A stretch of DNA of 64,000 nt from Solidesulfovibrio carbinolicus (GTDB lineage Bacteria; Desulfobacterota; Desulfovibrionia; Desulfovibrionales; Desulfovibrionaceae): NCBI RefSeq assembly GCF_004135975.1, contig NZ_CP026538.1:3782001-3846000 (forward strand), in the 5' to 3' direction. The position numbers and the translations under genes were made by a program. Positions within the stretch are counted from its first letter, which is position 1; every line of letters starts with the position of its first letter. Below the pieces are notes generated by a model. The model was not told where the DNA came from and searched no databases. It was given only the letters and a program-made list of their open reading frames with translations. Positions 4,941 through 21,877 of this stretch are shown piece after piece.

Positions 4941-4982
4941 TGCCTCCGGCGGCCGGGGGCCTGAGGCCCCCGGACCCCCCAA
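4941..4982 (+). repeat. GC-rich palindromic repeat, family 1, copy 1
   Basis: The element begins TGCCTCCGGCGGCC, continues into the palindrome GGGGGCCTGAGGCCCCC and ends GGACCCCCC. It lies just past the lrgB-type stop after a T-rich tract. Together with an inverted copy at 5205-5250 it fills most of the 353-bp gap between 4924 and 5276; the stretch between the copies (4983-5204) holds no gene I can support. Confidence 0.8.
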
Positions 4983-11082: not shown

Positions 11083-11508
11083 TCAGAGGGCCGCGAAAAA
11101 GCAGATCACCGCAAAAAGGCCCAGGCCGGTGCGGATGGCGTGGAGCAGGTTCCACTTCTCCAAAAGCGCCCGGGTGGCGGCGTCGGCCGTGTCCGGGTCG
11201 GCGGCCGTCAGCTGCCGGTTGACCGGCATGATGAAGCGGTAGGTGACGACCCAGTTGGCGATGGAAAAAAGCGCCCCCGTGACGAAAAGCGCCTTGCCGG
11301 CCCAGTAGGCGGCCAGCAGGCCAAAGAAAAAACCGCCCACGGCCAGACTGGCCTGCATACGGTAGGCGCGCGGATAGCTCGCCTGCCACTGGGCCAGCAT
11401 CTCGCCGTCCAGCAGCCCGCGCCGGGCCGGGTGTTCCACAAGGTTGATGTACAGGGCCGCGCCGGTAAACGCGGCCATGAGCGCCAGAGCGATAGCGCCA
11501 AATTCCAT
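11083..11508 (-). CDS. DUF1772 (anthrone-oxygenase-like) membrane protein
   Basis: The 141-aa protein has about four membrane helices. It begins MEFGAIALALMAAFTGAALY and has conserved NLVEHPAR and WNLLHAIRTGLGL stretches typical of DUF1772 proteins. The biochemical role is mostly unknown; some fungal homologues are anthrone oxygenases. Its ATG lies 3 bp past the stop of the upstream aminotransferase gene, with a GAGG site, so it is co-transcribed with the deoxysugar operon, although nothing ties it to that pathway. Confidence 0.75.
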   Translation of the reverse strand: MEFGAIALALMAAFTGAALYINLVEHPARRGLLDGEMLAQWQASYPRAYRMQASLAVGGFFFGLLAAYWAGKALFVTGALFSIANWVVTYRFIMPVNRQLTAADPDTADAATRALLEKWNLLHAIRTGLGLFAVICFFAAL

Positions 11509-11511
11509 GGG

Positions 11512-12633
11512 TTACCTCGTTTGGCCGTCCACCTCGGCCAGGGTGTCGATAAGCGCGGCGATGGCAAAATCCTGCTCGGCGTCGGTGAGCGACGGATACA
11601 TGGGCAGGGAGAATATCTCCCTGGCCGCTCGCTCGGTGTGGGGCAGGTCGCCTTCCTTGTAGCCCAGATGCGCGTAGCCCGTCATGGTGTGGATGGGCCA
11701 GGGGTAGCTGATGTTGAGGTTGACCTCGCGGGCCCTCAGGCCAGCCAGGACGGCGTCGCGCTTGGGGTGGCGGGCGACGTAGAGATAATAGGCGTGGTCG
11801 TTGCCCGGGGCGGTCACCGGCAGGGTCAGGGACGTGCCGGCCAGGGCGGCGTCGTAGCGGGCGGCCAACTGCCGGCGGCGGGCGATGTAGGCCGGCAGAT
11901 GCTTGAGCTTGCCGCGCAGGATGGCGGCGTGGACCTCGTCCAGCCGGCTGTTGAACCCGTGCTCCAGGGCGTAATAGGTCTTTTCCATGCCGTAGAAGCG
12001 CAGCTTTTTGAGCTTGGCCGCCACGTCGTCGCGGTCGGTCAGCACCATGCCGCCGTCGCCGTAGGTCCCCAGAATCTTGGTGGGATAAAAGGAAAAGGCG
12101 GCCGCGTCGGCCAGAGCGCCGCAGATCCGGCCATGCCGGGCCGCGCCGTGGGACTGGGCGCAGTCCTCGACCACCAACAGCCCGTGGCGCTCGGCCACGG
12201 CGGCCACGGCCTCCATGTCCACGCACTGGCCAAAAAGATGCACCGCCACGATGGCCCGGGTGCGCGGCGTCACGGCCGTTTCCAGCAGCGCCGCGTCCAT
12301 GAGGTAGGTGGCCGGGTCGATGTCGACGAAGCGTGGCACGCCGCCGGCGCTGGCGATGGCCGAGACCGTGGGCACGGCGGTGTTGGAGACGGTCAGCACC
12401 TCGTCGCCCGGCTGAAGCCCCACGGCCAGCAAAGCCAGCATGACGGCATTGGTGCCGTTGTCCACGCCCACGCCGTGGGCCGCGCCGCAGTAGGCGGCGA
12501 ACTCCTGTTCGAAAGCCGCGACATTGGGGCCGAGGATGAGCTTGCCCGAAGCCAGCACCTCTTCCACCGCCGCCATGATCTCGGCCTTTTCTTCCCGATA
12601 CTCTTCCAAATAGCCCCAAACATTAACCGCCAT
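11512..12633 (-). CDS. DegT/DnrJ/EryC1 sugar aminotransferase
   Basis: The 373-aa protein starts at the ATG at 12633 with AAGGAG. It is a PLP-dependent NDP-ketosugar aminotransferase: GVDNGTNAVMLALLAVGL near residue 55, VEDCAQSHGA around 160, and the PLP lysine in SFYPTKILGTYGDGG near 185. Homologues such as FdtB and QdtB aminate the C3 keto group of dTDP-3-keto-6-deoxyhexoses made by FdtA/QdtA-type isomerases; such an isomerase is encoded upstream in this operon, which supports a C3-amino sugar. Confidence 0.9.
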   Translation of the reverse strand: MAVNVWGYLEEYREEKAEIMAAVEEVLASGKLILGPNVAAFEQEFAAYCGAAHGVGVDNGTNAVMLALLAVGLQPGDEVLTVSNTAVPTVSAIASAGGVPRFVDIDPATYLMDAALLETAVTPRTRAIVAVHLFGQCVDMEAVAAVAERHGLLVVEDCAQSHGAARHGRICGALADAAAFSFYPTKILGTYGDGGMVLTDRDDVAAKLKKLRFYGMEKTYYALEHGFNSRLDEVHAAILRGKLKHLPAYIARRRQLAARYDAALAGTSLTLPVTAPGNDHAYYLYVARHPKRDAVLAGLRAREVNLNISYPWPIHTMTGYAHLGYKEGDLPHTERAAREIFSLPMYPSLTDAEQDFAIAALIDTLAEVDGQTR

Positions 12634-12655
12634 CCCATCACTCCTTGTTCCCCCT

Positions 12656-12702
12656 ATTGGGGGGTCCGGGGGCCTCAGGCCCCCGGCCGCCGGAGGCATC
12701 TT
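12656..12702 (-). repeat. GC-rich palindromic repeat, family 1, copy 5
   Basis: On the minus strand a purine-rich lead (AAGAAGAATAAGATGCCTCC) enters the common block, then GGGGGCCTGAGGCCCCC and GGACCCCCC. It sits 12 bp after the oxidoreductase stop and 23 bp before the aminotransferase start, inside the deoxysugar gene run, and may divide it into two transcripts. Confidence 0.8.
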
Positions 12703-12714
12703 ATTCTTCTTGTA

Positions 12715-13647
12715 TTACTCACTCAACCGCGCCCGAACCCTGGCGTCGGCAATGAGCGCCGCCGCCAGGGCGGGGTCGTGGCCGTGGGCCATGGCCGTGA
12801 GCGCGCGGGTAAAAAAGCGGGCAAAGGCGTCGGCCGGCGGGATGATCTCCACCAAGCAGCCCGTGGGCGTATTGCAGGCCAGTTCCAGGGCGGCTCCGGG
12901 CGGCGGGGTGAAGACCCGGTCCAGGGAGGCGGCCAGATTGGGGCCGAGCACGTCCAGGCGGTTGGCGTAGCCGGTGTCGAAGCCGAAGGTTCCGGTGAAG
13001 CTGCGCCCGCCGGGGTAGGTCATCTGGCAGACGAAGGCGGTGTCGACTTCCGGGCCGCGCGAAAGGATTTGGCAGGCCACGGTGTCCGGCTGGCAGCCGA
13101 AGAGCACCCGGCCGGGGCTGGCGGCATAGGCCCCGAGGTCGGACAGCGCCCCGCCGCCCAGGGCGGCGACGTGGCGGAAGTTGCCCGGCGGCAGGGGCGG
13201 AAAGGAAAAGACGGCGGAAGCGCGCGCGGGGGCCGAGCCGGCGGCGGCGAAGGCGGCCATGAGGGCTTCGATGCCCGGGTGGTCGGCCCAGACCGTGGCC
13301 TCGGCCAGGGTGAGGTTCTTTTTGGCGGCCAGGGCGGCGGCGGCCTCGGCCTCGGCCAGGGTCAGGAAGGCCGGCTTGTCCACCACGACGTGGCGGCCGG
13401 ATTCCAGGGCGGCCAGGACCAAGGCGGCGTGGCGGCTGTTTTCGGTGGTGACGTAGACGGCCTGGGCCGGACTGTGGGCCAGGGCGGCCTTGGCGTCGTC
13501 GCGCCAGGTGACGTCCAGCCCGGGCGGCAGGGCCGGCCGGCGGCCGCTGCGGGAGACGATCTCGACCCCGGCCAGGCCCAGGGCGGACAGGTTCGGGGCC
13601 ACCCGGCGGGCGAAAATATCGGACGCGCCGAAAACAAGGAGCTTCAC
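12715..13647 (-). CDS. Gfo/Idh/MocA-family NAD(P)-dependent sugar oxidoreductase
   Basis: The start is the GTG at 13647, whose GTGA overlaps the stop of the upstream dehydratase gene; the product is 310 aa. The N-terminal Rossmann fold begins KLLVFGASDIFAR, and the catalytic lysine region reads HVVVDKPAFLTLAEAE (EKP-like, here DKP). In deoxysugar pathways such enzymes (TylC1/UrdS type) reduce the 3-keto group left by the 2,3-dehydratase, so it is probably the NDP-hexose C3-ketoreductase of this operon. Its coupling to the dehydratase gene supports that. Confidence 0.85.
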   Translation of the reverse strand: MKLLVFGASDIFARRVAPNLSALGLAGVEIVSRSGRRPALPPGLDVTWRDDAKAALAHSPAQAVYVTTENSRHAALVLAALESGRHVVVDKPAFLTLAEAEAAAALAAKKNLTLAEATVWADHPGIEALMAAFAAAGSAPARASAVFSFPPLPPGNFRHVAALGGGALSDLGAYAASPGRVLFGCQPDTVACQILSRGPEVDTAFVCQMTYPGGRSFTGTFGFDTGYANRLDVLGPNLAASLDRVFTPPPGAALELACNTPTGCLVEIIPPADAFARFFTRALTAMAHGHDPALAAALIADARVRARLSE

Positions 13648-15062
13648 GGCAGGGTCTCCAGCAGGCCCAGGCAGGCCATGAGGTTTCGGGCTTCGATGTT
13701 GACGTGGCCGTGGCGGGCCATGCGCCACAATTGCCCCAGCGTCATCCAGGCGTAGTGGTCCGGCAGGTCCAGAGACCTTCCGGGCGGCAGCTCCACCACC
13801 ATGTAGCGGTTCTGGAAATGGTGGAAGCGCCCGCCCTCCTCGGACTGCACGGCGTCGTAGCGCACGATGGCCCGGCCGGGTTCAAGGAAATGGGCCAACA
13901 GCGGCGGGGCGCAGGCCCGGCAGGCCCGGGCGACCACTTCGGAACAGGCGACGGTCGGCCCGATCTCCATGCCGTCGCGGTTGCCGGGTTCCAGGCTTCC
14001 CCGGGCCAGGAAATGGAGTACGCCGCCGTGGCGCTGGCACAAGAAGCCGACCAGCCCCTGGCCGTCGTGGTGAAGCAAGGGCTGGGACCAGTTGGTGGCC
14101 TCACGGGTGTGGGCCTGCACGTCCACGCCGATGACGGAAAAATACAGGCCCGTTTCGTGGCGGATTTCCGTGTCGGTCACGGTCCAGCCGCGCAGCCGAT
14201 CCAAATCCAGGGAAGAAACGCGCATGTCGTGGCGGGCCTTGCCGGCCGTGAGCCAGGCCATGAGTTCGTCCATGGTATGGCGTTCCTTGTCCGAGCGGCA
14301 AAAGGACAGATAGACGTCGAGGCCAAAGCCGCCCACGTCGTGGATCAATCCGTAATCCGGCCCTTCGTCGGGATCGGCCAGGGGAATAAGCGACACCACG
14401 GTGCGGGCGTCCATGTTGACGATGTTGTCGTGGTGCAAAAGGGCCTTGATCTGGCCCAGGGTGAGCCAGCGGAAATCCTCGTGCTCGGGCACGGGGCCGT
14501 CCACGGCGACGACCATGTTGCGGTTGCGCTTGCGCAAAAACCGCGCCCCCTGTTCAGGCTGGAGCTGGTCCAGGAGCACCCTGGCCCGGCCGGGCTCGGT
14601 GAAATATTCGAGGTAGCGCGGCGTGGCTCCGGCATGGACCCGGGAATAGTTGCTGTGGGTGGCCTGGACCGTGGGCGAAAGCTGGAGGATGTTGACGTTG
14701 CCGGGCTCCATCTTGGCCTGCATGAGAAAATGGAGCACGCCGTCGATCTCCCGGGCGAGAAGCCCCAGGATGCCCACCTCGGGCTGGTTGATGATGGGCT
14801 GGTCCCAGGATGCCACCGGGCCGAAACCGGTTTGCGCCCGAAGTCCTTCGATGGCGAAAAACCGTCCCGAGCGGTGCATCAGCCGCATGGGATTTGGCGC
14901 GTAATGCCACTGGGAAAGGGCGGTCAGCGGGGCGCGACGCACTTCGAAGCGGCTGCGGTCCTTGGCGTTAAACCAGTCCAGGACGGCGGCCACGTCCGGC
15001 AATTCCCCGGCCAGAGCCCGGCTGGAACGCAGAAAGGCCAGACGGACGGCAGCGGTGCTCAT
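13644..15062 (-). CDS. NDP-hexose 2,3-dehydratase family protein
   Basis: The 472-aa protein is built of two similar halves, each with a PIINQPEVGILGLL/PLLHHDGQGLVGFL-type segment, then GVLHFL, EPGN, GPTV and a FHHFQNRYMVV-like block. This is the internal duplication seen in EvaA/TylX3-type NDP-4-keto-6-deoxyhexose 2,3-dehydratases, which remove the C2 hydroxyl. The family is best known from antibiotic 2,6-dideoxysugars; here it sits in a bacterial surface-glycan-like operon. Its start overlaps the upstream isomerase gene (ATGA) and its stop overlaps the downstream reductase gene (GTGA). Confidence 0.88.
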   Translation of the reverse strand: MSTAAVRLAFLRSSRALAGELPDVAAVLDWFNAKDRSRFEVRRAPLTALSQWHYAPNPMRLMHRSGRFFAIEGLRAQTGFGPVASWDQPIINQPEVGILGLLAREIDGVLHFLMQAKMEPGNVNILQLSPTVQATHSNYSRVHAGATPRYLEYFTEPGRARVLLDQLQPEQGARFLRKRNRNMVVAVDGPVPEHEDFRWLTLGQIKALLHHDNIVNMDARTVVSLIPLADPDEGPDYGLIHDVGGFGLDVYLSFCRSDKERHTMDELMAWLTAGKARHDMRVSSLDLDRLRGWTVTDTEIRHETGLYFSVIGVDVQAHTREATNWSQPLLHHDGQGLVGFLCQRHGGVLHFLARGSLEPGNRDGMEIGPTVACSEVVARACRACAPPLLAHFLEPGRAIVRYDAVQSEEGGRFHHFQNRYMVVELPPGRSLDLPDHYAWMTLGQLWRMARHGHVNIEARNLMACLGLLETLP

Positions 15063-15469
15063 GGCTGGGCAACCGCCTCCAGAAAGGCTTCGTAACTACG
15101 GATGGAGCGGCTCATGTCGTAGTGGGTGCTGGCCAGCACCAGGCAGACGGCTCCGGGCGCGATGTCGCGGATGTCGATAAAGACCATGGCCGGGATGAAA
15201 AGCCCCTGGGCCGGATCGGCCAGACGCACGGACATCCGGTCGCGGCCGTCGGTGAGGTCCAGGCGAAGCGAACCCGATACGCAGACCACGAGTTGGTCGG
15301 TGTCGCGGTGGGCGTGGCCGCCGCGCTCGGCCGTCATGCCGTGCATGTAAAAGACCCGGCGGATGGGAAAAGGCACGGTCTGCCCGGCCTCGACCACGGA
15401 CAGCCAGCCCCGGTCGTCGCCGACGGAAGGTACGGCCATAGGCCGCACCCGGCCAAGGGGCCCTACCAT
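15059..15469 (-). CDS. FdtA/QdtA-like NDP-4-keto-6-deoxyhexose 3,4-ketoisomerase (cupin)
   Basis: The 136-aa cupin has the family signature VFYMHGM and RGGHAHRDTDQLVVCVSGS with the catalytic His residues of 3,4-ketoisomerases (FdtA, QdtA, WxcM C-terminal domain). It would convert the 4-keto to a 3-keto sugar, the substrate for the C3 aminotransferase encoded downstream. The ATG at 15469 has GGGAGG upstream; it overlaps the glycosyltransferase gene by 7 bp and the dehydratase gene by 4 bp. Confidence 0.87.
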   Translation of the reverse strand: MVGPLGRVRPMAVPSVGDDRGWLSVVEAGQTVPFPIRRVFYMHGMTAERGGHAHRDTDQLVVCVSGSLRLDLTDGRDRMSVRLADPAQGLFIPAMVFIDIRDIAPGAVCLVLASTHYDMSRSIRSYEAFLEAVAQP

Positions 15470-16437
15470 CGGCGCGCCTCCCGGGTCGGGGTCAGGCCGC
15501 CGCCGTGGACTTCGCGCACCACGAACTGCGGGGCGCGGTTGGCCTCAAGCAGCCCCCGGCCGACGTATTCGCCCAGAAGCCCGAGCATGACGAGCTGGAT
15601 GCCGGCGAAAATAACCACCGTGACGTACAGCGTAGTCCAGCCCGTGGGCACGTCCACGCCAAGGAGCTTCTCCAGCAGGCTCCACACGGCCATGAGCAGC
15701 CCGAAGGCGCTGACGCCAAGGCCCAGCACGGCGGACAGGCGCAGGGGGGCCACGGAGAAATTGACGAACATGGTCAGCCACAACCGGATGAGCTTCCACA
15801 GGGTGTAGCCCGAACGGCCGGCCCGGCGGGGACAGTGCTCCACCTCGATCTGGGCGATGTTGTCGGTGACCCGCAGGATCAGACCGTCCACATAGGGAGA
15901 GGGGCCGGCGTAGGCGATGATGCGCTCGACCAGGAACCGGGACAGGCACTTGAAGCTTGAAAGATAGAGATGGCGCGGCTTGCCGAGCAGCCAAGTGGCC
16001 ACCAGATCGTTGAACGCGCTGCCCCAGTTGCGCAGGGCGTTATGGCATTTTTCGCGAAAAGCGCCGTACACCACATCAAAGCCGCCGGCCACGGCGGCGT
16101 CCACCAGCCGGGCCGCCTCGTGGGGCGGATTTTGGAAATCATCGTCCATGACCACGACATAGTCGCCGCCGGACTGGCACAGCCCGGCCATGACCGCGCC
16201 ATGCTCGCCGAAATTGCGGGCCAGGCGCAGATAGGTGACGCGTCCGGGATGGCGCTCGCAACAGGCCAGGCATTCCCGGTGGCTGCCGTCGCGGCTGCCG
16301 TCGTTGACCAGCACCACGTCGGTTTGGGGCAGCGGCGGCTCGGCGATCAGGGCATCCACCAGCCGGCCGATGGACTGTTCGGCGTTGTAGACCGGGATGA
16401 CGATGGTCAGCGTGGGCGATGATACGGCTTGGCTCAT
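15463..16437 (-). CDS. Family 2 glycosyltransferase of the polyprenyl-phosphate type
   Basis: The 324-aa protein has an N-terminal GT-A domain: VIPVYNAEQSIGRL, VNDGSRDGS, FGEHGAVMAGL and the metal-binding MDDDFQNPP near residue 100. Two membrane helices follow near the C-terminus (about 232-255 and 268-290), ending GEYVGR. This is the DPM1/ArnC/GtrB layout, where a sugar is transferred to undecaprenyl phosphate at the inner membrane. In this operon it probably loads the deoxy(amino)sugar onto the lipid carrier. It overlaps the methyltransferase gene by 4 bp. Confidence 0.9.
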   Translation of the reverse strand: MSQAVSSPTLTIVIPVYNAEQSIGRLVDALIAEPPLPQTDVVLVNDGSRDGSHRECLACCERHPGRVTYLRLARNFGEHGAVMAGLCQSGGDYVVVMDDDFQNPPHEAARLVDAAVAGGFDVVYGAFREKCHNALRNWGSAFNDLVATWLLGKPRHLYLSSFKCLSRFLVERIIAYAGPSPYVDGLILRVTDNIAQIEVEHCPRRAGRSGYTLWKLIRLWLTMFVNFSVAPLRLSAVLGLGVSAFGLLMAVWSLLEKLLGVDVPTGWTTLYVTVVIFAGIQLVMLGLLGEYVGRGLLEANRAPQFVVREVHGGGLTPTREARRW

Positions 16438-17228
16438 AACCCCTTGCCGGCGTTGCGTTGGAAGTTGCCGGAAACGCCCCGGCCGGGCTTGCGGGCCAGG
16501 GCGAAAACGGACAGGCCAAAGGGGAAGGCCAGGGCCTTGCCCACGATGGCGGCGTTTTCGAGACGCCGCACGGCGGCCAGGGCGGCGTTGAGCGGTCCGG
16601 GCAGCGGCGTCAGATCGGAGACCGGCTGGCAGTCAGGCCGACGACGCCGGCGGGCCAGGCGCACCAAGGCGGCGGCCGGAAATAAAAGCGTATTGGAATA
16701 GGACAAAATGTCCAGGGTAAAACCCGCCCCGGCGAGCATTTCCCGCACCTCGCCGGCCCGGTAGCGCCGCGCCACGCCCACGGCCCGGTCATGTTCGGCG
16801 TATAGCGCCTGGAAGGCCACGAGATTGAGAATAAGCGCCCCGCCCGGGGCCAGCACCCGATACAGCTCGGCAAAAGCGGCCGGCACGTCGCGGGGCGGCA
16901 CGTTGGCCAGCACGTCCAGGGAAAGCGCCACGTCAAAGGCGGCGTCGGCAAAGGGCAGGGTCACGGCCGAGGCCCGGACCAGGGGAAAATCGCCGCGCCC
17001 CCGGGCCAGGGACAGGGCCGTGGCCGACAGGTCGAGGCCCACGGGCTGCAAATCGGCGAAAATTTCCAGCACCTTGCCCGTGCCGCAGCCGGCGTCCAGG
17101 ACCCGGCCCGGGCCGGACACCAGCCCCCGGCAGCGGGCCAGCGCCCGGCAGACCTGATCGTGCAGCCCCAGATACCACCAGTGCCGTTCCTCGGCCTGGC
17201 GCATGGCGGCGTATTCGGCTTCCAGCAT
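16434..17228 (-). CDS. Class I SAM-dependent methyltransferase
   Basis: The 264-aa protein starts at the ATG at 17228; a GTG at 17240 is possible but its GAGG touches the codon. Motif I is VLDAGCGTGKVLE near residue 48 and the post-I acidic residue is in PVGLDLS. The N-terminal EERHWWYLGLHDQV is typical of sugar- or lipid-modifying methyltransferases that accompany glycosyltransferases. It is the first gene of the minus-strand operon, so it may methylate the sugar made here; that is inference. Confidence 0.82.
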   Translation of the reverse strand: MLEAEYAAMRQAEERHWWYLGLHDQVCRALARCRGLVSGPGRVLDAGCGTGKVLEIFADLQPVGLDLSATALSLARGRGDFPLVRASAVTLPFADAAFDVALSLDVLANVPPRDVPAAFAELYRVLAPGGALILNLVAFQALYAEHDRAVGVARRYRAGEVREMLAGAGFTLDILSYSNTLLFPAAALVRLARRRRRPDCQPVSDLTPLPGPLNAALAAVRRLENAAIVGKALAFPFGLSVFALARKPGRGVSGNFQRNAGKGL

Positions 17229-17355: not shown

Positions 17356-18105
17356 ATGTCGCCGCGCCATCACCCTTCGCCGCTGTTTTCCGTGATCGTC
17401 CCCGTACTGGGCGAGGCGCGCCGCATAAACGGCGTCATCGACAACATTCATGCCGCCGGCTACGGCACGCCGCTGGAAATCATCGTTGTCGATGGCGATC
17501 CGGCCGGCGGGACCATCCGGGCCATCGACCGGGAGGGCGTGACGGGACTGACCGCCCCGCCGGGCCGGGGCAGCCAGCAAAACGCCGGCGCGGCCGTGGC
17601 CCGGGGCGAATATCTGCTGTTTCTCCACGCCGACACGCGACTGCCGGCCGGAGCCTTTGCCGAGGCGGCCCGGCTTCTGGACACCCGGGCCGAACTGGCC
17701 GCCTTTTCCCTGGCCATCCGCTCCGAGAAATGGCTCCTGCGGGCCATTGCCGCCGCCGCCACCTGGCGCTCACGACTTTTTTCCCTGCCCTACGGCGACC
17801 AGACACTGTGCCTGCGCCGGGAGCTCTTTGCCGCCATGGGCGGCTTTTGCGACATCCCGGTCATGGAGGACGTGGAGCTGGTGCGCTGTCTGCGCCGGGC
17901 CGGCGGCCGGGTGGCCGTTTCGCCATTGCGGGTGACCACCTCGGCCCGGCGCTGGCTGGCCGAGGGACCGCTTTTGGCCACGGTCCGCAATCTGGCCCTG
18001 CTTACCGGCTACACCCTGGGCCTGGCCCCGGCCCGGCTGGCCCGGTTCTACCCGCCCCGGCCCATCCCCCCGGCCCACGGCCCCGGCCCGGCCGGCGGGC
18101 GCTGA
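17356..18105 (+). CDS. TIGR04283-type family 2 glycosyltransferase
   Basis: The 249-aa protein has a GT2 core: FSVIVPVLGEARRINGVIDNI, IIVVDGDPAGGT, GRGSQQNAGAAVARGEYLLF and LHADTRLP as the DXD-containing strand. PYGDQTLCLRR is the hallmark of the TIGR04283 subfamily, often called an arsenosugar-type transferase, with the true substrate usually unknown. It is followed after 3 bp by a TIGR04282-type gene, its common partner, so the two form a conserved pair. Confidence 0.85.
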   Translation: MSPRHHPSPLFSVIVPVLGEARRINGVIDNIHAAGYGTPLEIIVVDGDPAGGTIRAIDREGVTGLTAPPGRGSQQNAGAAVARGEYLLFLHADTRLPAGAFAEAARLLDTRAELAAFSLAIRSEKWLLRAIAAAATWRSRLFSLPYGDQTLCLRRELFAAMGGFCDIPVMEDVELVRCLRRAGGRVAVSPLRVTTSARRWLAEGPLLATVRNLALLTGYTLGLAPARLARFYPPRPIPPAHGPGPAGGR

Positions 18106-18108
18106 CCC

Positions 18109-18804
18109 GTGGCGGCCGTATCGCTGCATATCCTGGCCAAGGCCCCGCTGCCGGGGCTGGTCAAGACCCGCCTGGCCGCCGTGTGCGGCGACGACGTGGC
18201 CTTGGCGGCCTATCGGGCCATGGCGGCCAACGTCTTTCGCGCCGCCCTGGCCTCGGGCCTGCCGGCCACCGTCCATTTCGCCCCGGATAACGCCCGGGCG
18301 GCCATGGAAACCCTGTGCGGCCCGGGATTTCAGCTTTCGCCCCAAGCTCCGGGCGATCTCGGCGCGCGCATGGCCGCCGCCCTGGCCGGAGCGCTCACGG
18401 CCGGCGACGCGGCCGCCCTGCTTATTGGCGCGGACCTGCCCCTTCTCACCCCGGAGCTGCTGGGTAAGGCCGCCAAGGCCCTGGAGGAAAAACCGGCCGT
18501 GCTGGGACCGGCCGCGGACGGCGGCTACTGGCTCATCGGCTTCACCCGGGCGGGATTTACGCCCGAGGTTTTCGCGGACATGCCCTGGAGCACCGCCGCC
18601 GTGGCCGGGCTGACCCGGGCGCGTCTGGCCGCGGCCGGCCGGGATACGGCCGAGTTGGCGACCCTGCCCGACTGCGACGAGGCGGCCGATCTGGCCCGGC
18701 TGGACGGACCGCCCTGGCGACAGGCCCTTGGCGGCACGCCCTTTGGCCAATTTCTGGACGCGGCCACGGCCGGGCTATTTGACCAAAATCGCGCCAACCG
18801 TTAG
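18109..18804 (+). CDS. TIGR04282/DUF2064 family nucleotidyl/glycosyltransferase-like protein
   Basis: The 231-aa protein starts at a GTG 3 bp past the preceding gene. It begins HILAKAPLPGLVKTRLA, a nucleotidyltransferase-like loop, then has LLIGADLPLLTPELL with the metal-binding Asp and GPAADGGYWLIGF, all characteristic of DUF2064 (cofC-like) proteins. Its biochemistry is not established. Pairing with the TIGR04283 gene suggests a two-step sugar activation and transfer. Confidence 0.85.
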   Translation: MAAVSLHILAKAPLPGLVKTRLAAVCGDDVALAAYRAMAANVFRAALASGLPATVHFAPDNARAAMETLCGPGFQLSPQAPGDLGARMAAALAGALTAGDAAALLIGADLPLLTPELLGKAAKALEEKPAVLGPAADGGYWLIGFTRAGFTPEVFADMPWSTAAVAGLTRARLAAAGRDTAELATLPDCDEAADLARLDGPPWRQALGGTPFGQFLDAATAGLFDQNRANR

Positions 18805-18860
18805 GGTTGAAGGAAAATACAGGCGAGCCTGGGGCTGGCCGGCACGGCAGGGAGGCGCGG

Positions 18861-19616
18861 TTGGGGACGCCTGGCGGAGAATTGCGCGCGCGCACGCTTG
18901 TCAGCTGCTTTCTGCGCTGCTACCTGGTCGGCGCGGCGTTCAACACGCGCGGCCTGCAGCACGTGGGGCTGGCCTACGCCATGGAACCGGGACTGGCCCG
19001 GCTCTATCCCGACCCGGCCCAGCGCGACGCCGTGTTCGAGCGTTACCTCAAGCTCTACAACACGCACTTTTTCTGGACCCCCTTGCTGGTGGGGCTTTTT
19101 TTGTCCCTGGAGGAAAAGATCGCCCAGGGGCTTGTGCCGCCGGAAATGCTTGACAACGTCAAGACCACGACGGCATTCACCCTCTCCGCCATAGGCGACA
19201 CGTTTTTTTCGGCCAGCGTCATGGGCCTGTGGGGGCTTTCGGCCGCCTGTCTGGCCGCCGACGGGCGCTACGGACTCCTGGCCGGGCTTACCGCCGCCCT
19301 GTTCCTGGCCGCCCAGGCCTTCAAGGCCATGACCTTTCGCGCCGGCTATCGCGAGGGCTTCCAGGTGCTGCGCCGCCTCAAGCGCTGGGATCTGGTCAAC
19401 CTGGGCCGACGGGTCAAGGTGGCCAACGCGGTGCTGTTGTCGCTTTTCTGGGTGCTGGCCCGGCCCCGGGGCGAGACCGGCTCGCCCTTGGCCGACGCGG
19501 CGCTCATCGGCATTCTGGCCGCCTGGGCCGCCACGCGGCCGTCGGTGTCCCGGGAAGCGGCGCTTTTGGCCCTGGCCGCCGGCTGGGTGCTGGCCCGCTC
19601 CATGTGGCCGGCGTAA
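18861..19616 (+). CDS. PTS mannose/fructose/sorbose-family IID component
   Basis: The start is uncertain: a TTG at 18861 has GGGAGG at the right distance; a TTG at 18807 gives 18 more residues but has no spaced site. The protein (about 251 aa) matches the IID subunit: RTLVSCFLRCYLVGAAFNTRGLQHVGLAYAM near the start, then NTHFFWTPLLVGLFLSLEEK, and hydrophobic segments at the C-terminus. IID forms the membrane channel with IIC. No IIC, IIB or IIA gene follows; HPr and EI genes do, so the permease is incomplete in this window. Confidence 0.88.
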   Translation: MGTPGGELRARTLVSCFLRCYLVGAAFNTRGLQHVGLAYAMEPGLARLYPDPAQRDAVFERYLKLYNTHFFWTPLLVGLFLSLEEKIAQGLVPPEMLDNVKTTTAFTLSAIGDTFFSASVMGLWGLSAACLAADGRYGLLAGLTAALFLAAQAFKAMTFRAGYREGFQVLRRLKRWDLVNLGRRVKVANAVLLSLFWVLARPRGETGSPLADAALIGILAAWAATRPSVSREAALLALAAGWVLARSMWPA

Positions 19617-19683
19617 AGCCGGCATAACCGCCAGGCCCGCGCCTGGCCCGCCGCCCCATAAGCGGCCGAAACGACGGTGGACG

Positions 19684-20010
19684 ATGACCGAGCCGACCCA
19701 AGCCGCCCCCCTGCCCGGGGCCGACGACATCCTGGCCGAAGCCGACGGTTTCGTGCTGCGCGTGCGCGTGGCCAACGAACAGGGCCTGCACGCCCGCCCG
19801 GCCGCCAAGCTGGCCCAGGAAGCCCAGAAATTCGCCTGCGACATCCAGGTGCGCCACGACGGCGGCGACGCCGTGGACGCCAAGAGCATTCTCGATATCC
19901 TTACCATGGCCGCCGGCCAGGGCTGCGAACTGGAACTGCGCGCCGCCGGGCCCGACGCCGCCCAGGCCCTTGGGCGCCTGGGCGAACTGTTTCGCAACCG
20001 TTTCCGCTGA
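19684..20010 (+). CDS. ptsH: HPr-family phosphocarrier protein
   Basis: The 108-aa protein contains the HPr fold, with the active-site histidine in EQGLHARPAAKL (His about residue 36) and the regulatory-serine region in AKSILDIL (Ser about 68). It has an N-terminal extension of about 20 residues compared with the usual 85-90 aa. It relays phosphate from EI, encoded 85 bp downstream, to IIA domains. The operon order IID-HPr-EI supports a PTS used for regulation or for mannose-type sugars. Confidence 0.92.
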   Translation: MTEPTQAAPLPGADDILAEADGFVLRVRVANEQGLHARPAAKLAQEAQKFACDIQVRHDGGDAVDAKSILDILTMAAGQGCELELRAAGPDAAQALGRLGELFRNRFR

Positions 20011-20095
20011 CCCCGCGACCGGTCCGTGACAGGGACCGAAAAACCCCCAACCCCGCCGCGCCGCGGATCGCCGCCGCGCCAAGGACCAGCCCGAC

Positions 20096-21877
20096 ATGGC
20101 AACCCTCAAAGGCATCCCCGTCTCGGCCGGCATCTCCATCGGACGGGCCTTTTTCTTAAACCGCTCCGGGGCCGGCCCCCTGCCCCGCCAGACCCTGCCC
20201 GAAGCCCTGGTCGGCCCGGAAACGGCCCGCCTGGATCGCGCCATCGAGCAGTTCGCCCAGGAAATCGAACAGGCCCGGGAGCGCATCCCGGCCGATCTGC
20301 GCGAACATGCGCTCATTATCGACTCCCACCTCATGATCCTCAAGGATCCCAAACTTTCGGGAGTCGCCAAACGCTACATCCAGACCCTGGGCATCAACGC
20401 CGAATGGGCCCTGGACAAGGCCGTGGCCGACCTTGAAAAGGCTTTCGAGGCCCTGGACGACCAGTATTTCCGCGACCGCATCCAAGACGTGCGCACCGTC
20501 TCGGGCCGCGTCCAGGCAAGGCTCGCCGGCCAGACCGCCGAAATACGGGCCATCGAGAGCCGGGTGGTGCTCATGGCCCACGACGTCTCCCCGGCCGACA
20601 CGGCGTCCCTGGAGACCGACAAGATCATGGCCCTGGTCACGGTCCAGGGCGGCAAGACCTCCCATACCGGCATCCTGGCCCGGACGCTTGGCATCCCGGC
20701 CGTGGTCGGCGTCACCGAACTCGAACGCGAAGTGCGCGACGGCGACCTCGTGGTGGTGGACGGGCTGCGCGGCGTGGTGGTGCTGTCCCCGGCCGAGGAG
20801 GAACTGGCCCGGCTCTCCGACCTCAAGTACCAGTTCGAGGCCTACCAGGCCGGCATCATGCGCGGCTGCCACCTGCCCGGCGAAACCATCGACGGCTACC
20901 GGCTCAAGGTCAAAGCCAACATTGAGATGCTCGAAGAAGTGCCCACCGTGGTCAACAACGGCGGCGAGGGCATTGGGCTGTACCGCACCGAATATTCCTA
21001 CATGAACCGGGCCAAGCTGCCCACGGAAGAAGAGCTTTACCAGGAATACCTGGACCTTGCCACGATCATGTCGCCGCGCCGGGTGACGCTGCGCACCCTG
21101 GACGCCGGGGCCGACAAGTTCGTCTCCACCCTGGGCAGCCTGGACGAGCGCAACCCGGCCCTGGGGCTGCGGGCCATCCGCCTGTGCATGCACCACCGCG
21201 ATATTTTCATGACCCAGCTGCGGGCCATGCTGCGGGCCTCGGTTGCCGGCAACATTTCGGTGATGTTCCCCATGATCTCCGGGCTGCGGGAAATCCGGCA
21301 GGCCAAGGCCATGCTGGCCGAGGCCCGGGCCCAGCTGCGCCAGGAAGGCCACCGCTTCAACGCCGACCTGCCGGTCGGCATCATGATGGAGCTGCCCTCG
21401 GCCGTGATGATCGCCGAGATCCTGGCCCGGGAGGTCGATTTCTTCAGCATCGGCACCAACGACCTCATCCAGTATTCCCTGGGCATCGACCGCACCAACC
21501 GGTACGTGTCCCACATGTACCAGCCCCTGCATCCGGCCGTGGTGCGCAGCATCAAGCACGTGGTCGACGCCGCCCACCAGGCCGGCATCGAAGTGAGCCT
21601 GTGCGGCGAAATGGCTTCCGATCCCTTTTGCGTACCCATCCTCATGGGCATGCAGATCGACTGCATCAGCTTGACCCCCCAGGCCATACCGGGCATCAAG
21701 CGGATCATTCGCCAGGCCACCATGGACGATTGCAAAAACCTGCTTAAATTGGTTCTGGAAAGCCCGTCCGTGACCCGGACCAATGCCCTGGTCCAGGAAA
21801 CCATCTTCCGGCAGTTCCCGGACGAGCTGATGTTCTATTCCTCCCTGCTTGACCGGGAGGACTCCCCGGCCCATTGA
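20096..21877 (+). CDS. ptsI: PTS enzyme I (phosphoenolpyruvate-protein phosphotransferase)
   Basis: The 593-aa protein is a full-length EI. The N-terminal HPr-binding and phosphohistidine domain has GGKTSHTGILARTLGIPAVVG (phospho-His near residue 190). The C-terminal PEP-binding barrel has GIGLYRTEY, RTLDAGADK, MFPMIS, FFSIGTNDLIQY and the active Cys in SLCGEMASDP near residue 505. It phosphorylates HPr from PEP in the cytoplasm. It follows ptsH in the same operon. Confidence 0.96.
   Translation: MATLKGIPVSAGISIGRAFFLNRSGAGPLPRQTLPEALVGPETARLDRAIEQFAQEIEQARERIPADLREHALIIDSHLMILKDPKLSGVAKRYIQTLGINAEWALDKAVADLEKAFEALDDQYFRDRIQDVRTVSGRVQARLAGQTAEIRAIESRVVLMAHDVSPADTASLETDKIMALVTVQGGKTSHTGILARTLGIPAVVGVTELEREVRDGDLVVVDGLRGVVVLSPAEEELARLSDLKYQFEAYQAGIMRGCHLPGETIDGYRLKVKANIEMLEEVPTVVNNGGEGIGLYRTEYSYMNRAKLPTEEELYQEYLDLATIMSPRRVTLRTLDAGADKFVSTLGSLDERNPALGLRAIRLCMHHRDIFMTQLRAMLRASVAGNISVMFPMISGLREIRQAKAMLAEARAQLRQEGHRFNADLPVGIMMELPSAVMIAEILAREVDFFSIGTNDLIQYSLGIDRTNRYVSHMYQPLHPAVVRSIKHVVDAAHQAGIEVSLCGEMASDPFCVPILMGMQIDCISLTPQAIPGIKRIIRQATMDDCKNLLKLVLESPSVTRTNALVQETIFRQFPDELMFYSSLLDREDSPAH

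Follow-up and report, generated by a model that had tools for sequence, protein, structure and literature searches.

A candidate pathway to a surface-glycan 3-amino-2,3,6-trideoxyhexose in Solidesulfovibrio, combining a 2,3-dehydratase with a 3,4-ketoisomerase

How can a sugar 2,3-dehydratase and a sugar 3,4-ketoisomerase serve in the same operon? The question is raised by a stretch of 64,000 nucleotides from Solidesulfovibrio carbinolicus (contig NZ_CP026538.1, positions 3,782,001 to 3,846,000 of the forward strand; hereafter the window). Open reading frames and family profile matches place six predicted genes on its minus strand within positions 11512-17228; in order of transcription they encode a methyltransferase, a family 2 glycosyltransferase (GT2), an FdtA/QdtA-type isomerase, an EvaA-type 2,3-dehydratase, a Gfo/Idh reductase and a DegT aminotransferase. 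According to the mechanism in the accessible text of PMC8987622, the dehydratase takes a 4-keto sugar, from which the C3 proton and the C2 hydroxyl are removed. Since the dehydratase needs the 4-keto group, an isomerase acting first should block it, and the two enzymes would compete unless the isomerase acts later. We propose, with a probability of roughly 0.56, that the six genes specify a single linear pathway, in which the isomerase does act later, to a 3-amino-2,3,6-trideoxyhexose linked to undecaprenyl phosphate. More generally, and with a confidence that falls a little short of even odds, we suggest that a distinct clade of dTDP-4-keto-2,6-dideoxyhexose 3,4-ketoisomerases (dTDP, deoxythymidine diphosphate) works with a C3-ketoreductase in place of the usual 4-ketoreductase, so that Gram-negative bacteria obtain a surface-glycan 3-amino-2,3,6-trideoxyhexose, with a daunosamine- or acosamine-like skeleton, independently of antibiotic clusters.

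In the pathway that we envisage, RmlA and RmlB, which are encoded elsewhere, would make dTDP-4-keto-6-deoxyglucose, and the 2,3-dehydratase would convert this to dTDP-3,4-diketo-2,6-dideoxyglucose. The Gfo/Idh reductase would then reduce C3 to give a 4-keto-2,6-dideoxy sugar, and the FdtA-type isomerase would shift the keto group from C4 to C3, setting the C4 hydroxyl without a 4-ketoreductase; reductase and isomerase together would thus do that enzyme's work. The Fig. 2 legend of PMC8987622 remarks, in general terms, on the capacity of 3,4-ketoisomerases to relocate the keto group in pathways of this sort. The DegT enzyme would aminate C3, the methyltransferase would probably N-methylate (or O-methylate) the product, and the ArnC-like GT2 would attach the sugar to undecaprenyl phosphate, from which a surface glycan would receive it on the periplasmic side. 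Throughout this scheme the substrates, step order, stereochemistry, nucleotide, methylation and acceptor are predictions.

What can be read directly is which genes are present, their families, catalytic residues and order, and their co-occurrence at other loci. A reading of the window's letters alone (the sequence-only reading) had assigned six genes of these families to this place and strand, and all six give clear profile matches. The protein encoded at 13644..15062 is a clear family match to the EvaA-type 2,3-dehydratases and is predicted to be one: its chain has the two PF03559 stretches of the EvaA-type double repeat, and EvaA is its best solved relative. The pocket A glutamates of EvaA, E139 and E190, align with E119 and E170 of the window dehydratase and are kept in 93 of 93 aligned dehydratases; mutating this pair abolishes EvaA activity, as stated in the accessible text of PMC8987622. 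We rejected the idea that pocket B is an additional active site found only in this group, as the equivalent of Glu358 is also present in 60 of 70 actinobacterial rows. The best PDB match of the reductase, 3RBV, is named a sugar 3-ketoreductase and is, we assume, KijD10. A Lys and a Tyr are kept in 65 of 65 aligned reductase rows; the Lys is the residue altered in 3rcb, and the Tyr presumably has a role in catalysis. The aminotransferase matches 7B0D, named a scyllo-inositol transaminase (317 bits), 2OGA (296 bits), QdtB 3FRK (284 bits) and 2PO3 (137 bits). Taking 2OGA to be the C3-acting DesV, QdtB to be likewise C3-acting and 2PO3 to be the C4-acting DesI, the window enzyme scores nearer to the C3 than to the C4 enzymes and is predicted to be of C3 type. 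Its catalytic Lys (K208 in an over-long open reading frame) is kept in 16 of 16 non-actinobacterial rows, and the 38 actinobacterial rows have His (28) or Lys (10) at this position, where His is described as the mark of 3-dehydratases in the accessible text of PMC8987622. In these catalytic-residue alignments each locus was represented by its single best row, and loci L160-L168 were left out.

The isomerase carries the features that bear most directly on the order of the steps. Its best solved relatives are FdtA and a QdtA variant (81 and 76 bits, respectively), and the HAH (HxH) motif, whose histidines are substituted individually in the FdtA variants 2pae and 2pak, is kept in the window isomerase and in 24 of 24 dehydratase-linked rows (L049 was omitted from these, its open frame being incomplete). 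At position 97 (QdtA numbering) the window isomerase has Ile and all 24 linked rows have Ile, Leu or Val, whereas free FdtA relatives (24 genes from 19 of the better-scoring loci; weaker matches were not used) have Arg in 15 cases, His in 6, Gly in 2 and Val in 1. The residue is His in the sequences of FdtA and of the QdtA variant 4ZU7, which we take to be the QdtA Y17R/R97H double mutant with altered product stereochemistry. The window isomerase thus lacks the Arg or His found at position 97 in most homologues, a feature that is typical and not known to be strictly required. The 24 linked rows, from 23 distinct loci, form with the contig-edge fragment L172 one clade of 25 (support 100/100), within which none of the free isomerases examined falls except this fragment. 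A separate linked clade with a changed position 97 is what would be expected if the isomerase's substrate had changed. In our reading position 97 lines the substrate pocket, and the aliphatic residue looks adapted to a 2-deoxy substrate. A separate observation on this family is that five Desulfobacterota genomes (L182, L183, L184, L185 and L187) carry tandem FdtA-family pairs in which one protein has HAH and its neighbour HAY, possibly an active/inactive pair.

In order to see how the genes associate, we compared loci chosen by the presence of the dehydratase, with flanks of at most 8 kb to either side (shorter at contig ends). The dehydratase occurs in 18 of 297 genomes of the order sample and in 10 of 395 of the phylum sample, with the window's genome counted in both. 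Ten of the order-sample genomes with it are of the same genus, the window's own included, and one same-genus genome among those listed lacks it (the list, apparently kinship-sorted, does not itemise 259 order-sample genomes without a match). The cassette, in part rearranged, is found again in further Desulfobacterota and in one Chloroflexi metagenome-assembled genome. That the gene set turns up in additional genera and families makes a chance grouping unlikely, and with the same-genus occurrences the rearranged cassettes led us to reject a chance or misannotated gene set. The comparison covered 31 distinct non-actinobacterial loci (the window, L042, L043, L048, L049, L110, L121-L137 and L160-L168, with L110 and L166, on the same contig, counted once, and the duplicates L041=L130, L044=L123, L045=L134, L046=L121 and L047=L125 dropped) and 70 actinobacterial loci (L050-L120 minus L110), which hold the nearest relatives of the window dehydratase and are not all established as antibiotic clusters. 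An FdtA-type isomerase is encoded at 24 of the 31 non-actinobacterial loci and within ~8 kb at none of the 70 actinobacterial ones; isomerases may exist farther from these or in more distant clusters. The sequence-only reading had called the two keto-chemistry enzymes unusual together outside antibiotic clusters; in our sample the reverse holds, and with 0 of 70 actinobacterial loci an origin of the pair in antibiotic clusters is not supported.

The isomerase also follows particular partners. The Gfo/Idh reductases split into two clades, of which the window's (22 of 43 rows, support 100/100) comprises the isomerase-bearing rows plus L165; this tree took one in three of 48 actinobacterial frames and omitted L043 as too short. 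By hand count, the isomerase is present at 22 of 23 loci with a window-clade reductase, the single miss being at a contig end, versus none of the 5 whose reductase belongs to the other clade, and the three loci with no visible reductase all lie at contig ends. It is likewise present, again by hand count, at 17 of 19 loci with a C3-type DegT (the misses are L165 and L168) versus 0 of 3 with a C4-type enzyme. The latter are L122, whose DegT scores 238 bits with 2PO3 (DesI) versus 141 with QdtB, and L164 and L167, called C4 type by their similarity to it (483 and 414 bits). All 17 isomerase-positive loci with a DegT in view also have the window-type reductase. The seven isomerase-negative loci are L122, L137, L163, L164, L165, L167 and L168; in L137 the contig ends at the dehydratase and in L165 just upstream of it, and elsewhere in the L165 genome an isomerase fragment belonging to the linked clade sits at the edge of a different contig. 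Given its co-occurrence with one reductase clade and a C3-type DegT, the isomerase would be present where a C3-reduced sugar would need C3 amination. The sequence-only reading had predicted a 2,6-dideoxy or 3-amino sugar. Family and structure matches argue for both features, and since the isomerase, the one reductase clade and the C3-type DegT go together among dehydratase loci, the sugar is most likely both 2-deoxy and 3-amino, which removes the "or". Independently of these counts, positions 6-3782 of L165 hold two C3-type aminotransferase genes (one cut by the contig end) flanking two frames that by eye resemble an AbiEi/AbiEii-like toxin-antitoxin pair, as if the aminotransferase gene had been duplicated around an insertion.

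The precursor genes had been expected outside the window, and this was borne out: neither rmlA nor rmlB has a match within the 64 kb, and a profile search of the genome located each as the sole match over cut-off, rmlA at C1:687420-688274 (494 bits) and rmlB at C1:2978854-2979813 (446 bits), the latter adjoining a frame that reads as rmlD-like. Both are therefore present in the same genome and unlinked to the cassette. The genome holds one 2,3-dehydratase gene (two PF03559 matches in one frame) and one FdtA-family match; among named relatives, the closest to the dehydratase (97% identical) is from Solidesulfovibrio magneticus isolate UBA7700.

As to the destination of the sugar, the GT2 aligns with ArnC over residues 8-319 of 324 and scores 154 bits with the NCBIfam ArnC-type model PRK10714, below its equivalog cut-off of 529. 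The ArnC-like match suggests loading on undecaprenyl phosphate, and a glycosyltransferase of this polyprenyl-phosphate type makes a surface glycan the probable destination, in agreement with the sequence-only reading. The methyltransferase may N-methylate the 3-amino sugar, with which its occurrence at C3-type loci fits: by hand count a homologue is present at 17 of 19 of these (L135 and the short L165 being the others) versus 0 of 3 C4-type loci, with a different methyltransferase-like frame, by reading, near the L122 cassette. A GtrA gene (PF04138) adjoins the cassette in L127; the window's genome yielded no PF04138 match. We also considered a dedicated C-type glycosyltransferase and rejected it: none of ten proteins beside other cassettes, mostly large membrane proteins by reading and one of them the GtrA of L127, scored over a GT-C family cut-off, the weak PMT_2 match in L110 reaching 18.5 bits against 26.1. 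One such neighbour, modelled from two sequences, gave a mean predicted local distance difference test score of 39 and had no match in the window's genome in a search run without a positive control. Of 14 PMT_2 matches in the genome, 13 exceed the cut-off; none lies in the window, and none was tied to the cassette.

Several facts weigh against the pathway as we propose it. The DegT enzyme could instead aminate C3 of the 3,4-diketo sugar, with the Gfo/Idh enzyme then reducing C4 and the isomerase employed otherwise (in epimerisation, or on another keto sugar). We consider such a route, as in vancosamine or angolosamine, unlikely for the window, though for L168 (genome G321) it is favoured: this locus has the dehydratase, an other-clade reductase, a C3-type DegT, a GT2 and a methyltransferase but no FdtA match genome-wide, so that a gene set of this kind may include a C3-type DegT yet no isomerase, and it is a real exception that contradicts our proposal. 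The actinobacterial loci L050, L065 and L118 similarly have a close C3-type DegT (425-429 bits) with neither isomerase nor Gfo in view, and a 3-aminotransferase followed by a 4-ketoreductase is proposed from sequence for angolosamine in the accessible text of the kidamycin paper (PMC9452638). The window reductase, moreover, lies outside the clade of reductases from antibiotic-type loci, in a separate clade of its own (support 100/100), and its C3 regiochemistry is assigned by homology only. Position 97 is Thr, by eye, in the L049 isomerase and Val in the free isomerase L195, and the co-occurrence counts are not independent, the association being inherited within clades of the isomerase, reductase and dehydratase trees; in a quick dehydratase tree the isomerase-positive rows do not form one clade, requiring four changes of which at least two are forced. 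Against early amination, an optional isomerase would be hard to reconcile with a motif kept in every linked row and a presence at all but one of the 23 loci with a window-type reductase, and the closest reductase of known structure bears the name 3-ketoreductase.

Alternatively, the genes could serve two sugars, with the isomerase and DegT making a dTDP-3-amino-3,6-dideoxyhexose of Qui3N/Fuc3N type and the dehydratase and reductase a 2,6-dideoxyhexose. By their entry names FdtA and QdtA act on a 6-deoxy-4-keto hexose, the window DegT is close to QdtB, and loci with isomerase and DegT alone would escape a sample selected by the dehydratase. We nevertheless find two sugars distinctly improbable: the operon has a single glycosyltransferase and no N-acetyltransferase among its genes, every isomerase-positive locus with a DegT in view carries the window-type reductase (17 loci), and position 97 is unlike that of most free FdtA genes, of which none examined joins the linked clade except the L172 fragment. 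Least probable of all, and very unlikely in our estimation, is that the product, instead of entering a surface glycan, is a soluble secondary-metabolite sugar. 2,3-Dehydratases are indeed described from antibiotic pathways in the accessible text of PMC8987622, but the glycosyltransferase is ArnC-like, GtrA stands beside the cassette in L127, and ten scanned window proteins included no polyketide synthase or nonribosomal peptide synthetase, no systematic search for such genes having been made.

The layout of the operon and its surroundings is given in Table 1. The sequence-only reading had described overlapping genes, which holds for the first five (by 4 nt between methyltransferase and GT2, 7 nt between GT2 and isomerase, and 4 nt at each of the two following junctions) and not for the aminotransferase gene, which is set off from the reductase gene by 81 bp containing a palindrome. 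The reductase and aminotransferase frames had been called over-long at the start; their most likely starts are GTG 13647 (310 aa) and ATG 12633 (373 aa). Pfam and NCBIfam scans of these two proteins used the over-long starts, and the PDB-search queries carried two extra residues (aminotransferase) and one (reductase).

Table 1. Predicted genes and other features of the operon region in the window
Feature	Position	Strand	Evidence
S-adenosylmethionine-dependent methyltransferase (Methyltransf_11)	16434..17228	-	Pfam 69.9 bits; best NCBIfam = DVU_1556 family, under cut-off
ArnC-like GT2, predicted polyprenyl-phosphate sugar transferase	15463..16437	-	GT2 98.8 bits; PDB ArnC 132 bits, sll0501 128 bits
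Predicted sugar 3,4-ketoisomerase, FdtA/QdtA family	15059..15469	-	PF05523 119.6 bits; PDB FdtA 81 bits
Predicted nucleoside diphosphate-4-keto-6-deoxyhexose 2,3-dehydratase, EvaA/TylX3 family	13644..15062	-	PF03559 473 bits; EvaA 377 bits
Gfo/Idh sugar ketoreductase, window-type clade	12715..13647	-	Pfam 49.3 + 40.1 bits; PDB 3RBV 81 bits
Pyridoxal-phosphate sugar aminotransferase, predicted C3 type (DesV/QdtB-like)	11512..12633	-	DegT 370 bits; PDB matches
Palindrome GGGGGCCTSAGGCCCCC between reductase and aminotransferase genes	12668..12684	.	Repeat count in window
Small Anthrone_oxy (PF08592) protein	11083..11508	-	Pfam; 3 bp downstream of aminotransferase

The Anthrone_oxy gene adjoins the cassette in 7 of 17 loci compared, all seven of the same genus, and its product is probably outside the core pathway. 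The palindrome is REP-like (resembling repetitive extragenic palindromic elements) and occurs five times in the window (at 4955, 5215, 8844, 11037 and 12668) against 0.14 expected, always within the first 13 kb. On the other side of the cassette, a divergent TIGR04283/TIGR04282 pair (17356-18804; model names "arsenosugar biosynthesis glycosyltransferase", scores over cut-off) is also present beside it in same-genus loci. Beyond this pair, at 18807-21877, a mannose-family phosphotransferase system EIID-like protein (Pfam) adjoins a probable HPr and enzyme I, both by reading.

2,3-Dehydratases have been described mainly from antibiotic pathways, and here one is encoded together with an envelope-type glycosyltransferase in a cassette that recurs among sulfate reducers from the environment. 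Should the linear pathway be correct, it would show how an isomerase, with no 4-ketoreductase, can shift the amination of a 2-deoxy sugar from C4 to C3; the operon would also offer enzymes for making daunosamine-like sugars, and a particular sugar could be sought in Solidesulfovibrio surface glycans. We found no description of a 2,3-dehydratase and a 3,4-ketoisomerase in one Gram-negative pathway in the literature searched, which left most subscription papers out of reach. The core components are all of known families; what appears to be new, as a variation on known 2-deoxy amino-sugar pathways, is their combination and the isomerase clade.

Among known systems, vicenisamine carries its amino group at C4. 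Its pathway (VinD/VinE/VinF/VinG) likewise uses a 2,3-dehydratase, a 3-ketoreductase, an aminotransferase and an N-methyltransferase from dTDP-4-keto-6-deoxyglucose, and the accessible text of PMC11284099, which names 4'-N-demethylvicenistatin, lists no isomerase; the window, in contrast, has an isomerase and a C3-type DegT. The C4-type loci L122, L164 and L167 resemble the described part of the vicenisamine pathway, with homologues of its 2,3-dehydratase, 3-ketoreductase and aminotransferase. Angolosamine and vancosamine share with the window a 2,3-dehydratase and a C3 aminotransferase leading to 3-amino-2,3,6-trideoxy sugars, and an isomerase may be encoded in the angolamycin sugar cassette as well. 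The angolosamine route of kidamycin is proposed with a 4-ketoreductase (accessible text of PMC9452638), whereas the window operon has a C3-reductase homologue and an isomerase and no 4-ketoreductase. The FdtA/FdtB and QdtA/QdtB systems (Fuc3N and Qui3N) share the 3,4-ketoisomerase, the C3 aminotransferase and the surface-glycan setting; they differ in having no 2-deoxygenation and, at position 97, a His in FdtA and 4ZU7 versus an aliphatic residue in the window isomerase. Fuc3N and Qui3N pathways also have an N-acetyltransferase in place of the methyltransferase, and no Qui3NAc/Fuc3NAc-type N-acetyltransferase is among the operon genes (the rest of the genome was not searched). Three-gene Gtr glycan decoration systems differ in their GtrA flippase partner, for which the window's genome gave no match. 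The likeness to ArnC/GtrB-type transferases, by comparison, extends over nearly the full length of the window GT2 in its alignment with ArnC, with a dTDP-deoxyamino sugar as the predicted donor of the window GT2.

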